From Carnobacterium sp. (GTDB lineage: Bacteria > Bacillota > Bacilli > Lactobacillales > Carnobacteriaceae): a stretch of DNA of 47,229 nt. The position numbers were made by a program, and so were the translations under genes. The notes beneath the pieces were generated by a model. That model was given only the letters and a program-made list of their open reading frames with translations, searched no databases and had not been told where the DNA came from. Positions 11,512 to 19,600 of this stretch are shown in pieces; the stretch's first letter is position 1; each line of letters begins with the position of its first letter. The stretch covers positions 1 through 47,229 of the forward strand of contig JAGQHW010000005.1 of assembly GCA_020431645.1 (NCBI GenBank). The letters are read 5' to 3'.

Positions 11512-11535
11512 TTACTGAACCAACATTATTTGAAA

Positions 11536-11665
11536 AGATGCCCTCTCACCTATGCTATTAGGTAAGAGGGCATCTCTGACATCACTCGTTGATGCTATCT
11601 AAACAGATAACGTCAACAAGTGATGCCTACGTGTATGCTCCTTCTTAGCCTCACAGGACTGGAGT
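11536..11665 (-). promoter_or_regulatory. PyrR-dependent transcription attenuator in the pyrR leader
   Basis: Minus-strand order: a PyrR-binding hairpin (TCCTT...AAGGA stem) whose loop AGTCCTGTGAGGCT (11660-11647) matches ARUCCNGNGAGGYU perfectly; a long stem-loop (11625-11579, arms CATCACTTGTTGACG... and its complement); then a terminator with the stem AGATGCCCTCTTACC...AGAGGGCATCT (11536-11575) followed by TTTTC. A GGCATC just before the middle stem can pair with GATGCC of the terminator's 5' arm, which would form the antiterminator. The pairing scheme is my inference from the sequence. Confidence 0.9.
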
Positions 11666-11697
11666 TAAAGGATTTCTTTCACTTGCTTCTATTCAAG

Positions 11698-13263: not shown

Positions 13264-13296
13264 AATCTACGGATAAAGAAAGGAGATGATTTAAAA

Positions 13297-13536
13297 ATGA
13301 AAAAACCAATAATTGAAAAAGTTTGGTTGATTAAAGGAATGTTGTTCAAAAATGAGGATTACCAACTAGCTCTTGACTTAGAAGATAGCAAAAATCGGGT
13401 AAGTATGCGGTACATTATTATTGATACCACTTCTGTTTCGTATCACAACGAGTTAGAAATTGGTTATCACCAAGAAGACTTCTTTATCTTTAGTAACAAA
13501 GAAGATGCTAAAAAAGATTTGTATTCTATTGCATAG
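13297..13536 (+). CDS. Small protein of unknown function
   Basis: Predicted 79-residue acidic protein beginning MKKPIIEKVWL. I do not recognise the family. The start is set by AAAGGAG before ATG 13297; an in-frame ATG at 13255 overlaps the predicted -10 box and is unlikely. No signal peptide, membrane helix or Cys residue is visible. The pattern of short beta-strand-like stretches (VWLIKGML, RYIIIDTTSV, DFFIFSN) suggests a small folded cytoplasmic domain. It has its own promoter and terminator, so it is probably expressed alone. Confidence 0.75.
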   Translation: MKKPIIEKVWLIKGMLFKNEDYQLALDLEDSKNRVSMRYIIIDTTSVSYHNELEIGYHQEDFFIFSNKEDAKKDLYSIA

Positions 13537-13582
13537 GTAGACTTAGTAATTCGTCCATAAGAGTTACCGTCTACCTTTTTTA
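13535..13582 (+). terminator. Rho-independent terminator of the small orphan gene
   Basis: AGGTAGAC...GTCTACCT inverted repeat followed by a T-run. It begins at the stop codon of the 79-residue gene. The remaining stretch to 13799 holds only the promoter of the envelope operon. Confidence 0.85.
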
Positions 13583-13683
13583 AATCCCCTCCATTAAATG
13601 ATGGATGAGGATTATTTTTTTGTCCTTTTTTTACTATTTTTTTTAATATATTAAGAAATTATGATGAAAAACAAAGGTATTAT

Positions 13684-13712
13684 TTGGGAATAATCCTAAC
13701 TTTTGGTATACT
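13684..13712 (+). promoter_or_regulatory. Promoter of the envelope operon
   Basis: TTGGGA (13684-13689), a 17-base spacer and TATACT (13707-13712) with an extended -10 TGG just before it, about 90 bases upstream of the lipoprotein start. Confidence 0.65.
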
Positions 13713-13799: not shown

Positions 13800-14438
13800 A
13801 TGAAAAAACGTACTACAGCAGCTATTATGACTACCGCTTTATTTTTATCCGGTTGTACAACTGACGGGATTGCAGAGGCTACAAAGGACATTAAAGAATC
13901 TGAACCCATTGAAGAAGCAATCGTAGCACAATTAAATAGGGTTACTAAACAAGAAAAAGGATTGCAAGAAGCATTTGAAGCTACTTTATCCAAAGACAAA
14001 GCAGAGAAACCTTTTTCTGATAAAGAGTCAACTATTTTTAAAAATATTGATGAGCGAAAAAATTCTCTTGAGGCAATTAAGGCATCTATTGATGAATTCG
14101 ATTTAAAACAAAAAAGCTTAGTTGAAAATGATGGAACAACATTACCTGAAAAAGAAATAGATTCTTTAACAACGAGTATGAAAGAAATGAGCATCTCTCT
14201 TAACGATTATACTAAACTTTACGAGAAAAACTTAGCAGAAGAGGAAAAATACTTCCAATCTCTTGCATCAAAAGAAGCTACTTATCAGACTTTGACGGAT
14301 GGAATGGCTGCTATTAATGAGCAAGATGCTACAAATAAAGAGCAATTAAAAAAATTGAACGAACAATTTGAACAATTAAGAATTCAGCGTAAAGAGGCAC
14401 AAGAACAATTAAGTTCTTTATCAGAATCAACAAACTAA
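13800..14438 (+). CDS. YkyA-like cell-wall-associated lipoprotein
   Basis: A 212-residue predicted lipoprotein. The N-terminal signal peptide ends in a lipobox LSGC (Cys19), so the mature protein should be anchored in the outer leaflet of the cytoplasmic membrane. The rest is highly charged and helical, with heptad-like coiled-coil stretches (about residues 35-60, 85-130, 140-205) and no catalytic motif. Length and pattern resemble the YkyA (PF10368-type) putative cell-wall-binding lipoproteins; that assignment is moderate. RBS AAGGAG precedes ATG 13800. It is first in an operon with a deacetylase lipoprotein and a secreted glycosidase-like protein, which suggests an envelope role. Confidence 0.75.
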   Translation: MKKRTTAAIMTTALFLSGCTTDGIAEATKDIKESEPIEEAIVAQLNRVTKQEKGLQEAFEATLSKDKAEKPFSDKESTIFKNIDERKNSLEAIKASIDEFDLKQKSLVENDGTTLPEKEIDSLTTSMKEMSISLNDYTKLYEKNLAEEEKYFQSLASKEATYQTLTDGMAAINEQDATNKEQLKKLNEQFEQLRIQRKEAQEQLSSLSESTN

Positions 14439-14457
14439 TAATTGGAGTGATGAAAAA

Positions 14458-15321
14458 ATGAAACAAGCACTATCCATTTGTGGAGTAACCTTAATTAGCG
14501 CCTTGCTATTAAGTGCTTGCCAAACAACTAATCCAACGGCTTCTGAAACAAATTCAATGACTTCTTCTCTTACTCAAAGCAATTCGAATACAACAGACGC
14601 ATCAAGTGACAGTGCTCTAGCTACATCTGAAAAGATACTAGAAGAGGAAGAAATAAAACCAGTAGAGTATACATACAACGTTAATCCAGCTATCTTCACT
14701 ATTGAACCCCTGAATAAAGAGGACAATACAAAAGTAGCTTTATTAACTTTTGATGATGCTCCCGATACGCACGCCGTTGAGATTGCTAAAAAACTAAAAT
14801 CTATTGACGCACCTGCAGTATTCTTTGTTAATGGTATGTACATTGAATCAGAGGAAGGTAAGCAAAAGCTAAAAGACATTTATGATATGGGCTTTGAGAT
14901 TGGAAATCATTCACAAACACATGCTAACTTAAGTGAAATAACACCGGAAGAACAAAGACAAGAAATTATCAAAACAAATGAGCTAGTCTATGAAATAACC
15001 GGAGAGAAGCCTCGTTTCTTCAGAGCTCCATACGGTGTGAATACAGATGTATCTGCTCAAATCATTGAAGAAGAAAAAATGGTGTTTATGAATTGGACAT
15101 ACGGATACGATTGGGAAGCAGATTACCAAAATTCTGAAGCCTTGACGGATATCATGTTAAACACAGAGTACTTGAACGATGGTGCAAACTTATTGATGCA
15201 TGATCGATCTTGGACAAACGAAGCGACCATTGCTATTGCAGAAGGATTAAAAGAAAAAGGCTACACATTAATAGATCCAGCGCTAATCGCATCACCAGAA
15301 AGAGAGGAATCAACCCAATGA
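14458..15321 (+). CDS. Polysaccharide deacetylase lipoprotein (NodB domain)
   Basis: Predicted membrane-anchored carbohydrate esterase 4 family deacetylase, 287 residues. The signal peptide ends in lipobox LSAC (Cys21), followed by a Ser/Thr-rich linker to about residue 60. All NodB motifs are visible: TFDDAP (Asp99, Asp100), NHSQTH (metal ligands His151 and His155), RAPYG (189-193), DWE (218-220) and LLMHD (His248). The third position of motif 1 is Ala rather than the common Gly. Likely substrates are N-acetylated peptidoglycan or another wall glycan, removing acetyl groups; the exact substrate is not readable. The stop overlaps the start of the next gene (ATGA). Confidence 0.92.
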   Translation: MKQALSICGVTLISALLLSACQTTNPTASETNSMTSSLTQSNSNTTDASSDSALATSEKILEEEEIKPVEYTYNVNPAIFTIEPLNKEDNTKVALLTFDDAPDTHAVEIAKKLKSIDAPAVFFVNGMYIESEEGKQKLKDIYDMGFEIGNHSQTHANLSEITPEEQRQEIIKTNELVYEITGEKPRFFRAPYGVNTDVSAQIIEEEKMVFMNWTYGYDWEADYQNSEALTDIMLNTEYLNDGANLLMHDRSWTNEATIAIAEGLKEKGYTLIDPALIASPEREESTQ

Positions 15322-16532
15322 TAACGACTAAAAAACTGACAAACAGCGTGTTGCTAAGCTTCTTACTTTTTACTGCTTTTCCATTAACAACACAAGCAGA
15401 AGAGCCTACTAAAGACCAACCTATCGAAGTCAATGATCAACCTCTTTTAAGTATCCCTAAAAAATTCCCTGCACAATTTGCTTATGATAGTGGAATTACT
15501 ATTGCTTATCCTGAAAACGGCGTCAAAGGAGTCTATTTAACAGCCTATTCTGCTGGTGCACCAAAAAGAATGGCTGAACTATCTGAATTCGTCACCTCAA
15601 GTGGTTTAAATGCGATGGTTATCGATATAAAAGATGATGTTGGTCATTTGACTACAGATGTAAAATCTGATAATGAAATGATTCAAAAAAGCACTCAAAA
15701 TTATATTGCTGATCCAGACTCAATGATGACTAATTTAGAAAAAAATCAAATTTATCCGATTGCTCGAGTCGTCGTTTTCAAAGATACTTTACTTGCAGAA
15801 GCAAAACCAGAATTATCTTTCAAGCGTCCTGATGGGAGTGTTTGGAAAAATAGTAACGGAGATGCTTTTGTAAATCCCTTCTCAAAAGATGTCTGGGAAT
15901 ACAATGTTGAAGTAGCTAAACAAGCCGCTAAAATGGGCTTTAAAGAAATACAATTTGATTATGTTCGTTTCCCAGAAGGTTTTGAAACGCAAAGCGATAG
16001 TTTAAGTTACACTCGCGGTGATTATCAAGATAGCGAATTAGACGAAGTACAACAGCGTGTTGCTGCTGTAACAGATTTCGTTAAATATGCACGTGAAGAG
16101 TTACGTCCATATGGTGTTGAAGTCTCTGTAGATATCTTTGGTTACGCTGCTACTGTTCCAGAAGCTCCAGGAATTGGACAAAACTTTGGTAAAATTTCCG
16201 AAAACGTTGATGTTATTTCTTCTATGATTTACCCTAGTCACTGGGGTTCTTATTTCGGAATTGCAAAACCTGACCTAGAGCCTTATAAATTAGTTCAAGA
16301 ATATATGAAAGTTGAAAATGAGTTGTTAGGCTCATTAGAAACACCACCTAAATCAAGACCTTGGCTACAAGACTTTACAGCTTCTTATCTTGGTGCTGGT
16401 AACTACATTAATTATGGAGCGCCTCAAGTATCTGATCAGATTAAGGCTTTACACGAAGCCGGAATTGAAGAGTTTCTTTTATGGGATGCTAATAACAGTT
16501 ATACGCCAGGTGTAGAGTATAACTTAAAATAA
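15318..16532 (+). CDS. Secreted putative glycoside hydrolase (DUF4015 type)
   Basis: A 404-residue secreted protein with a signal peptide ending near TTQA-EE and a TIM-barrel-like domain typical of the DUF4015/putative glycosyl hydrolase family. Visible hallmarks are VKGVYLTAYSAG, MVIDIKDDVGH, YPIARVVVFKD, EIQFDYVRFPEG, VSVDIFGY, SSMIYPSHW and EFLLWDANNSY. The Asp in IQFDYVRFP and other conserved acidic residues are candidate catalytic groups. The start at 15318 overlaps the deacetylase stop by four bases; a longer in-frame ORF from 15210 lies inside the deacetylase gene and would hide the signal peptide. Substrate unknown; coupling with a deacetylase suggests action on a wall or surface polysaccharide. 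Confidence 0.87.
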   Translation: MITTKKLTNSVLLSFLLFTAFPLTTQAEEPTKDQPIEVNDQPLLSIPKKFPAQFAYDSGITIAYPENGVKGVYLTAYSAGAPKRMAELSEFVTSSGLNAMVIDIKDDVGHLTTDVKSDNEMIQKSTQNYIADPDSMMTNLEKNQIYPIARVVVFKDTLLAEAKPELSFKRPDGSVWKNSNGDAFVNPFSKDVWEYNVEVAKQAAKMGFKEIQFDYVRFPEGFETQSDSLSYTRGDYQDSELDEVQQRVAAVTDFVKYAREELRPYGVEVSVDIFGYAATVPEAPGIGQNFGKISENVDVISSMIYPSHWGSYFGIAKPDLEPYKLVQEYMKVENELLGSLETPPKSRPWLQDFTASYLGAGNYINYGAPQVSDQIKALHEAGIEEFLLWDANNSYTPGVEYNLK

Positions 16533-16544
16533 AACCGTTCAACC

Positions 16545-16603
16545 TAATGAAAAGGCCCCTTTCTTCGTCTGTTATACAAGACGAGAAAGGGGCCTTTTCA
16601 TTA
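16545..16603. terminator. Bidirectional terminator between the envelope operon and rexA
   Basis: Nearly perfect inverted repeat of about 25 bp (TAATGAAAAGGCCCC... on the left arm, one-base bulge) with a 7-base loop. Its right end overlaps the rexA stop codon. It can end the converging transcripts from both sides. Confidence 0.9.
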
Positions 16604-19600
16604 GTCATTTACTAGAACCAATTCATTGTTAGCCAATAAACAGAGATATGCTTGTACAACAGGTTTATTCAAACTAATTTCAAGTGCTTTCCGATATAAA
16701 TTCATTTGTCCTCTGTATTTTTCAAGCATATTCTCACCAGCTTTCAAACCGTAGCGAGTAATTTGGTCTGTTTTATAATCAAATAAAATAATCTCTTTTT
16801 CAAATTCCAAGTATCCATCTACAATTCCGTGAATCAAAACGGTGTCTTTTGCAGTGGGGTCTAAATCAGTAAAGATTCTATCTGCTTTTATTAGCAATGA
16901 AAAAGGAGCTTCTCGTTTAACTTGTTCAGGATGAGCTAATAATAACTGTCCTAATTTATTTTCAAAAAAGCGAACAATTTTGTCTTTTTCTATTTTTTCA
17001 GCTATCTCTGACTGCAACATGCCACTTTCAACTAAATTTAGGATTAATTCGTTAACTGAAAGGACAGTTACCGGTTCAAAGAGAGTAATAGATTGCATCA
17101 CTAAATGCGTTGCCGTCCCTATTTCTGCACTTGTAGGAGCAGTCATCTCTGCCATAAACTTGGGACGTGTTAACTTGTCCTCTACAAATCTATTTTGATT
17201 GCGCGGCTGGTTGATATCTATTTTAACCATGAACTCATCTTCTGGTTCTTCAAATAACCGCTTAATCTCTGAGACAGATTGATAACTAGTCGTATGAGTT
17301 GCTTTTTCATAACGGTAAGTATAATTCATGAGTGATAAGGCTTCTTCTAAGAGCCCTTGTTCCTCTACAACTAACCTATTTTTTGAAACAGATTCATTAA
17401 GTTTTTCGATCCATTTCTCGTCCGTTTCAAGATTTTCTTGAATCAATTCTTCTTGAATCATACTTTCTTTATAAAAATGAATAGAAAACTTAGCTGGATG
17501 ATTTTTAATGTGCATATTATTAGCTGTAATTGAAAGAAAATCATTTGTTGCATCTGAATGTCTCATCAACGAAAGTCCAATCCATTTCATCAAATTAGTT
17601 GCTGCCAGACGGTCGGCATTAGGTAAAACAGTTGCTTCATGGCCGCTTATGATTCCCCACTCTTTGTAAGCAGCTTCTTCATCTGTATAAGAACCAACTA
17701 AAAAAAGCTTTTCTTCAGCGCGAGTCAGAGCAACATACAGTTTTCGCATCTCTTCTGATAGCAATTTAACTTTTCTTTCCACTTTTAATGCACTGTTGGG
17801 TAAGGAAGCATGACGGATGTGGCTCTCTTGATCTCTATATTCCGTTCCGATTCCAAAATCTTCGTTAAACAAATAACTGTTTGTAATATCTTGTAAATTA
17901 AATTTTTTAGTTAAGTCTAACACAAAGACAACTGGAAACTCTAACCCCTTGCTAGCATGAATAGTCATGACGCGTACCGCGTCTTCGTCTACAGCAATAG
18001 CTTTAGGTTCAGCTAAGTCTTTATCCTTTTCTTGCATTTTTTCAATAAAACGGACGAATTGAAAGAGTCCTTTAAAACTCGTTTTCTCATAGCTAGCTGC
18101 TCTTTCGTATAAAGCATGTAGATTTGCCTTACGCTGACGTCCTGAGCTCATCCCGCCTACGTAATCAAGGAATTGAGTATCTGTATAGATAGACCAAATC
18201 AATTCAACTAAATGATTTCTTCTCGCTTCTTCTCGCCATTTTTTTAAACGGACTAAGAATACATCAATTTTATTAAATAAGGTCGTTGTAAACCCACTAG
18301 CCCTATCTTCTCCTGGATAAGAAGAATAAAATTGATTAAGTGCTTCATAATACTCACCTGTTTTTTGACTGATTCGAATAGACGCTAACTCATTTTCATT
18401 CAACCCCACAATAGGCGAACGCAAGACTGCAGCTAAAGGAATATCTTGATAGGGATTATCAATTATTTTTAATAAAGACATCATAATCGTAATCTCAGTC
18501 GTTTGAAAATAATTTTGTGTATTAGTGACAGACAACGGAATCGATAGTCGGTTGAATATCTCCAGTAAAATTAAATTATTTTTTTTAGTAGGCGTTAATA
18601 AGACGATATCCTTGTATCTAATTGGACGGTTACTTTTTAATTTCTTATCATAAATAGGAAATCCTTCTTTAATTAGTTGTTGAATTTTTTGACCAACCAT
18701 CAGTAGTTCGCCTTGTGTCTTCCCCTCTATTTGCATATCGTAATCTAAAGACTCTTCGTTGGACTCCTCTTTTTTTATCTCTTTTCCTTTTTCGTAAATC
18801 AAAATCTCTGTAGCATGCTCAGTTGTTTCTGGAAAATCAGTAAACCCTTGGATTAATTTAGCAGGCTCATCGTAATCCATTTGGCCAACAGATTTATCCA
18901 TTAGTTGTTCAAAGATTAAATTAGTGAATTGTAAAATTTCTCCTCTTGATCGGAAATTTTCAGCTAAAATAATCCGTTCGCCACCATTATTTTCACCGTA
19001 TTTTTCGTATTTTTCTAAAAATAAACCAGGATCTGCTAGTCTAAAAGAGTAAATAGACTGCTTAACATCTCCTACCATAAAAAGATTTCCTGTATTTGTT
19101 TCATTTTTTGTTAACCAGTGCAGAATATTTTCCTGTAACTTGTTAATATCTTGGTACTCATCAATCATCACTTCTTTAAATTTTTCTCGATAGTGACTAG
19201 ACGCTTCTGTGGGTGTCCACTTTTGCGCTTCATTTTTAGCTAAAATGTTTAATGTTAAGTGCTCTAGGTCATTGAAATCTAGTAAATTCCGCTCGTTTTT
19301 TCTCTCGCGATAAGCCAGCGAGTAGACCTTTGCAACCCGAGCCATCTCTTCGACTAATGGCACTGTTTTAACCATAACGTCAAGTTGATTTTCTAAAGGC
19401 GCATTAAAATACTCTTCTTTCATTTTTTCATAACGAGCCTTTGCTTGTTTTCGCAAGACAGCCATTTCGATACCGGCATCTTTTACACTATCATCTGCTG
19501 ATCTTTTGACTGGCCTCCAATTAACGAACTTAAACGATTGAACTAAAGGATAAACGTTTTGATAGTGATCCGCTTGAATAAGCGCAAGCACTTCTTTAAA

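Follow-up and report, generated by a model that had tools for sequence, protein, structure and literature searches.

One of the closest described counterparts of the locus reported here is the PdcF-PdaN pair of Bacillus anthracis. According to passages of a 2025 study in PLoS Biol (PMC12700454), PdcF, a YkyA-family protein, is a cofactor of a peptidoglycan deacetylase and is proposed to tether it to the membrane; PdcF and PdaN act together, PdcF being needed with PdaN for the deacetylase effects in genetic assays, and B. anthracis without pdcF is more sensitive to lysozyme. Already in print are YkyA genes next to deacetylase genes and a fusion of YkyA to DUF4015: the same passages describe an AlphaFold-predicted PdcF-PdaN complex, pdcF and pda genes as neighbours in Bacilli, YkyA fusions to deacetylase and to DUF4015 domains, and a predicted structure of the YkyA-DUF4015 fusion. 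Those passages do not state that YkyA and DUF4015 form a constant pair, that the deacetylase can be lost, or that the fold is linked to Cwp19 or PgaB. Excerpts of two further studies describe cleavage of partly deacetylated poly-GlcNAc by PgaB (PMC5933820) and assign Cwp19 to the lytic transglycosylases of peptidoglycan (PMC6016235).

Here, we analyzed a 47,229-nucleotide stretch of DNA from Carnobacterium sp. (the window), in which the genes of a YkyA-family lipoprotein, a CE4 deacetylase (Pda) lipoprotein and a secreted DUF4015 protein follow one another on the plus strand between hairpin terminators (Table 1). The three-gene operon is real, and it belongs to a real, conserved module that joins the known YkyA-deacetylase pairing to an uncharacterised enzyme family. 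We propose, with moderate confidence, that the products form a membrane-tethered peptidoglycan-processing module in which YkyA anchors a glycan-cleaving DUF4015 protein and works with the deacetylase where one is present.

Organization of the operon and its lipoproteins

The three families named in the original prediction all gave profile matches above cut-off, and its account of the layout, a 19-base gap between the YkyA and deacetylase genes (14439-14457) and an ATGA overlap of the deacetylase and DUF4015 frames (15318-15321), is exact. The common terminator that it placed behind the operon is a hairpin, which also serves the convergent addA. Its "one strong promoter" stood in part: the TTTGnTATAnT block upstream of the operon, which includes the -10 element, is kept in 5/5 genus members, but the strength was overstated, given a 9/12 score in a scan that found 26 sites against 26.0 in shuffles. 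Upstream of the operon, an 80-residue ORF (13294-13536, plus strand) has no family match; it lies beside the operon in 4/4 other genus members and is absent beside it in the 14 other relatives fetched. Farther upstream, a PyrR binding site (Rfam RF00515) is located at 11531-11675 on the minus strand.

Table 1. Features of the operon in the window, with coordinates, strand and supporting evidence
Feature	Coordinates	Strand	Evidence
Two hairpins with T runs closing the upstream ORF and insulating the operon	13535..13613	+	-30.3 kcal/mol, z -5.8
Candidate promoter TTGGGA-17-TATACT, extended -10 (TG before -10)	13684..13712	+	9/12 in scan
YkyA/PdcF-family lipoprotein, 212 aa, lipobox LSGC; putative membrane adaptor	13800..14438	+	PF10368 E 6e-19
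CE4 (NodB) polysaccharide deacetylase lipoprotein, 287 aa	14458..15321	+	PF01522 E 1.8e-29; motif alignment
Secreted DUF4015 protein, 404 aa, TIM-barrel glycoside-hydrolase-like	15318..16532	+	PF13200 E 4e-118; model
Linker PLLSIPKKFPAQFAYDSG, residues 42-59, candidate YkyA docking segment	15441..15494	+	motif pattern counts
DIKDD, residues 103-107, end of strand 2 (99-105)	15624..15638	+	D103, K105, D107 invariant, 50/50 sequences
FDYVRFPE, residues 213-220, end of strand 4, putative catalytic site	15954..15977	+	D214, E220 invariant, 50/50
Hairpin terminator common to operon and convergent addA	16544..16604	.	-44.4 kcal/mol, z -11.3

The window YkyA scored 68.9 bits against PF10368 (cut-off 28.8). 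Lipoboxes were read from the sequence as LSGC in YkyA and LSAC in the deacetylase, and the DUF4015 protein has a signal peptide without a cysteine, in agreement with the earlier claim of two lipidated products and one secreted product. Among the relatives, lipobox patterns occur in 17/19 YkyA, 17/17 deacetylase and 0/18 DUF4015 proteins, and all aligned YkyA proteins keep the cysteine (19/19). In the model of a Trichococcus YkyA-Pda fusion, the YkyA part is predicted as a helical bundle, with helices at residues 6-67, 80-110, 119-157 and 164-218; with a pTM of 0.54, this model defines no YkyA-Pda interface, and a fold search with it barely covered its YkyA part. The window deacetylase retains all of its motifs in the alignment (TFDDAP, NHSQTH, RAPYG, YDW and LLMHD), and the closest solved structures are CE4 proteins, mainly peptidoglycan and chitin/xylan deacetylases. 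Assignment as a PgdA, PdaA, PdaB or NodB equivalog was rejected, since the curated NCBIfam cut-offs were missed (best 98.4 bits against 237.4, PdaB); the scores against the PgdA/PdaC-type cut-offs were 75.3 of 800 bits (PgdA) and 72.6 of 400.

Predicted fold and invariant residues of DUF4015

The window DUF4015 protein matches the full PF13200 profile (394 bits, positions 1-313 of 313). Its model (pLDDT 91.2, pTM 0.85) points to a glycoside-hydrolase-like TIM barrel, in keeping with the glycosidase-like enzyme of the original prediction, with Cwp19 and the PgaB hydrolase domain as the nearest described folds. Foldseek ranked 4s1a, an uncharacterised DUF4015 relative, ahead of E. coli PgaB and C. 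difficile Cwp19, and a second aligner gave Z 27.8 for Cwp19 (rmsd 2.9 over 298 residues), Z 25.7 for the PgaB C-terminal domain (4p7l; rmsd 3.6 over 316), Z 24-25.7 for isolated PgaB hydrolase domains and Z 22.5 for the next other fold. A fold shared with Cwp19 and PgaB is no proof of a shared reaction, and the literature that we found naming DUF4015 describes no activity for the family. Sequence support for kinship with GHL10 is weak: the PF02638 (GHL10) profile has no match in the window DUF4015 protein or in the window's genome, the GHL10 HMM matches one DUF4015 protein (G039) at 1.6e-5, and the profile-profile comparison of GHL10 with DUF4015 gave E 1e-4 at a probability of 56%. A PDB profile search for a link to PgaB or Cwp19 returned only 4s1a and a weak match to a designed protein.

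The invariant acids of the DIKDD and FDYVRFPE motifs (Table 1) are joined by D272, likewise invariant (50/50), and all are located at or near the ends of barrel strands. In the profile alignment, the GHL10 "DDY" motif ("DDYFYP") has its first Asp opposite D214 and its second opposite Y215. If this DDY is Asp195-Asp196-Tyr197 of Cwp19, Y215 would occupy the position of the proposed key residue Asp196, which makes the identity of the catalytic residue ambiguous. The pattern of the N-terminal linker was found in 37/47 unique module DUF4015 proteins and 3/69 others (one of the 69 without the anchor); it was composed after the sequences had been seen, and since module and solo DUF4015 proteins are also different clades, the motif is not independent evidence of docking.

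Linkage of YkyA, the deacetylase and DUF4015

Direct reading of the gene order covered 18 relatives, 80 named loci and 20 stretches from 18/60 genomes of one neighbouring family. DUF4015 is present in 19 of 39 related genomes, and YkyA exceeds its cut-off in the identical 19. The three families co-occur, which the original prediction had proposed to check, in the order YkyA-Pda-DUF4015 within about 3 kb in 18 of these 19 module genomes, a count that takes in two broken modules, with the deacetylase of G008 and the DUF4015 gene of G016 each split into two frames. The split genes (L034 7196-7991 and L040 5941-7183, respectively) reflect assembly error or decay. The exception is G020, in which YkyA is followed by DUF4015 and the deacetylase lies about 45 kb away. 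In the 20 genomes without the module, the closest deacetylase has about 35% identity at best.

The survey took in 60 genomes of the neighbouring family that includes G020, which we take to be Aerococcaceae in GTDB. DUF4015 was found in 56/60 and YkyA in 54/60 of them, and in 54/54 YkyA genomes the YkyA gene immediately precedes DUF4015 in the same orientation, a count that outside the directly read stretches rests on the coordinates of the two domain matches. In G182, additional to the 54, an adjacent YkyA is present that the Pfam model missed. By spacing, 38 of the 54 leave no room for a deacetylase between the two genes, 8 have room, 7 have YkyA within a long frame of 463-473 aa that includes the deacetylase (a YkyA-Pda fusion), and in one (G231) YkyA and DUF4015 form a single lipoprotein of 563 residues. 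Close deacetylases, defined by E 1e-40 or better, are encoded elsewhere in 21 of the 38 genomes without room and nowhere in the other 17 (the latter tallied by eye), and genera g16 and g115 hold both arrangements, with and without a deacetylase between. Because YkyA adjoins DUF4015 in 54/54 genomes and the deacetylase is missing between them in 38, YkyA and DUF4015 are the constant pair and the deacetylase is a variable third part. YkyA tracks DUF4015, and the deacetylase may be found between them, fused to YkyA, elsewhere or not at all.

These arrangements make it unlikely that YkyA serves the deacetylase only, as PdcF does PdaN in B. anthracis, with DUF4015 as a co-transcribed bystander. Such a role would agree with the PdcF-PdaN genetics in the passages of PMC12700454 and with the YkyA-Pda fusions of Trichococcus and Jeotgalicoccus, but it does not account for the 38 pairs without room for a deacetylase, 17 of them in genomes without a close copy anywhere, nor for the natural YkyA-DUF4015 fusions, one in G231 and another named in those passages. 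Elsewhere in the family of G020, genus g102 (G203, G223, G230, G235 and G239) has open frames about 2050-2085 residues long in which several CE4-like stretches follow one another, and close deacetylase relatives occur away from YkyA-DUF4015 in frames of 570-584 residues (G196:C2:11138-11797 and G229:C22:71675-72343).

The 39 related genomes also bear on the substrate. A CE4 domain paired with a glycoside-hydrolase-like barrel, as in PgaB, and the similarity of the DUF4015 model to isolated PgaB hydrolase domains would suit a module that processes a PNAG-type exopolysaccharide as a Gram-positive counterpart of PgaB. We consider this quite improbable: the PgaC/IcaA synthase exceeds its cut-off in 2/39 genomes (G005 and G010), both without the module, and in 0/19 module genomes, the window genome being 92% complete, and the operon has no polymer synthase gene. 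Weaker glycosyltransferase matches to the PgaC/IcaA model are many, one in G017 reaching 296 bits. Because none of the 19 module genomes has a PNAG synthase over cut-off, we favour peptidoglycan over a PNAG-type exopolysaccharide as the most likely target.

Most Lactobacillales copies of the module are flanked by lspA, rluD and addA; this synteny makes the counts less independent, and the survey was therefore widened beyond the 39 relatives to the genome collection, whose 588 DUF4015 loci were reduced to 80. YkyA adjoins DUF4015 at 14/80 loci: nine have all three genes, four have YkyA and Pda fused (two Jeotgalicoccus and two Trichococcus), and one, in Geomicrobium, has no deacetylase. At two of the 80, DUF4015 adjoins a divergent deacetylase and YkyA is absent, and 64 have neither YkyA nor Pda nearby. 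Across a sample of 151 Bacilli genomes, YkyA exceeded its cut-off in 40, DUF4015 did so in 50 and both did in 22 (tallied by eye), and the two were linked in the window's genome only. The original prediction hinged on the genes staying together in relatives; in most Bacillaceae they are separate, and DUF4015 there belongs to another clade without an adjacent YkyA. In a DUF4015 tree of 101 rows, module proteins fall outside a well-supported clade made up of 66 unlinked proteins, the module/solo label changing twice (28.0 times in shuffles). The exceptions are two tandem DUF4015 copies of an Alkalibacterium bin (L078), whose genome has YkyA elsewhere. Diverged tandem DUF4015 duplicates occur there (L078 8345-11206) and in Granulicatella seriolae (L111 8565-11077). 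The module DUF4015 of Oceanobacillus piezotolerans groups with Staphylococcaceae modules and not with other Oceanobacillus copies, which points to a transfer of the module. O. piezotolerans and Geomicrobium each have a canonical YkyA plus a divergent module YkyA; with two YkyA types in one genome, the module appears to carry its own adaptor.

The three genes might be independent and linked only through inherited synteny, as the flanks kept around most Lactobacillales copies would allow. However, lspA, rluD and addA are all absent at 6/14 linked loci, so that shared synteny alone does not explain the linkage, and the modules at other genomic sites, the fusions and the grouping in O. piezotolerans leave this reading very unlikely. 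The linkage of the three genes is not due to chance.

Proposed mechanism and comparison with known systems

From the gene order, families, anchors, linkage, fusions and fold similarity observed here, we infer a membrane-tethered module in which YkyA would bind DUF4015. YkyA (PdcF family) would be a lipid-anchored helical-bundle adaptor that keeps the secreted DUF4015 protein on the outside of the membrane, probably via the N-terminal linker of DUF4015 (42-59), and would here also work with the separately lipid-anchored CE4 deacetylase. The deacetylase may strip N-acetyl groups from GlcNAc or MurNAc, and DUF4015 may cut the glycan strand, possibly reading its acetylation state; the deacetylase would then adjust the substrate that DUF4015 cleaves or resists. 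Counting against the adaptor model, the window deacetylase is itself lipidated and would need no tether. That DUF4015 is a non-catalytic glycan-binding barrel, as the lack of a demonstrated activity and the ambiguous residue mapping might suggest, is highly improbable in view of D103, D107, D214, E220 and D272, invariant at or near strand ends, and of nearest folds that are active enzymes.

A broader reading, which we put forward only tentatively, is that YkyA/PdcF proteins act generally as membrane adaptors and, in these Lactobacillales, partner chiefly with a peptidoglycan-cleaving DUF4015, with the CE4 deacetylase as an exchangeable second client, the whole being a Gram-positive counterpart of the two-domain enzyme PgaB. 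With such a second client, one adaptor would couple deacetylation and glycan cleavage. The original prediction of an extracellular glycan-processing module is supported by the linkage, the other genomic sites, the fusions and the DUF4015 fold, but the deacetylase-glycosidase tie that it stressed is not the centre, and it gave YkyA no role. Deacetylation and cleavage of the wall set lysozyme sensitivity and autolysis, and the module is thus a testable link between both. It also points to a likely function of the secreted DUF4015 family, which is scarcely named in the literature searched. Where the 2025 study presented PdcF as the cofactor of a deacetylase, the module adds a possible role for YkyA proteins as adaptors of an enzyme that cleaves the wall.

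Among known systems, the PgdA/PdaC-type peptidoglycan deacetylases have the CE4 fold and motifs in common with the window deacetylase, which differs from them as a short lipoprotein with a DDAPD variant of motif 1 and scores far under the NCBIfam cut-offs. Cwp19 (GHL10), as described in parts of PMC6016235 and PMC5765458, offers the nearest fold, acts on peptidoglycan and has a weak sequence bridge to DUF4015; however, it has its own cell-wall-binding repeats, whereas the window DUF4015 has no PF02638 match and its catalytic residue may differ. PgaB (CE4 and GH153; excerpts of PMC5933820) likewise couples a CE4 deacetylase to a TIM-barrel glycan-cleaving domain, whereas here the genes are separate and Gram-positive, the barrel matches PF13200 only and no PNAG synthase is found over cut-off. 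PdcF-PdaN of B. anthracis, as far as the passages of PMC12700454 describe it, likewise combines a YkyA-family lipoprotein with a CE4 deacetylase; in contrast, the module described here has DUF4015 in the operon as the constant partner of YkyA in the surveyed families, its deacetylase is itself lipidated, and its YkyA can be a second, dedicated paralogue.
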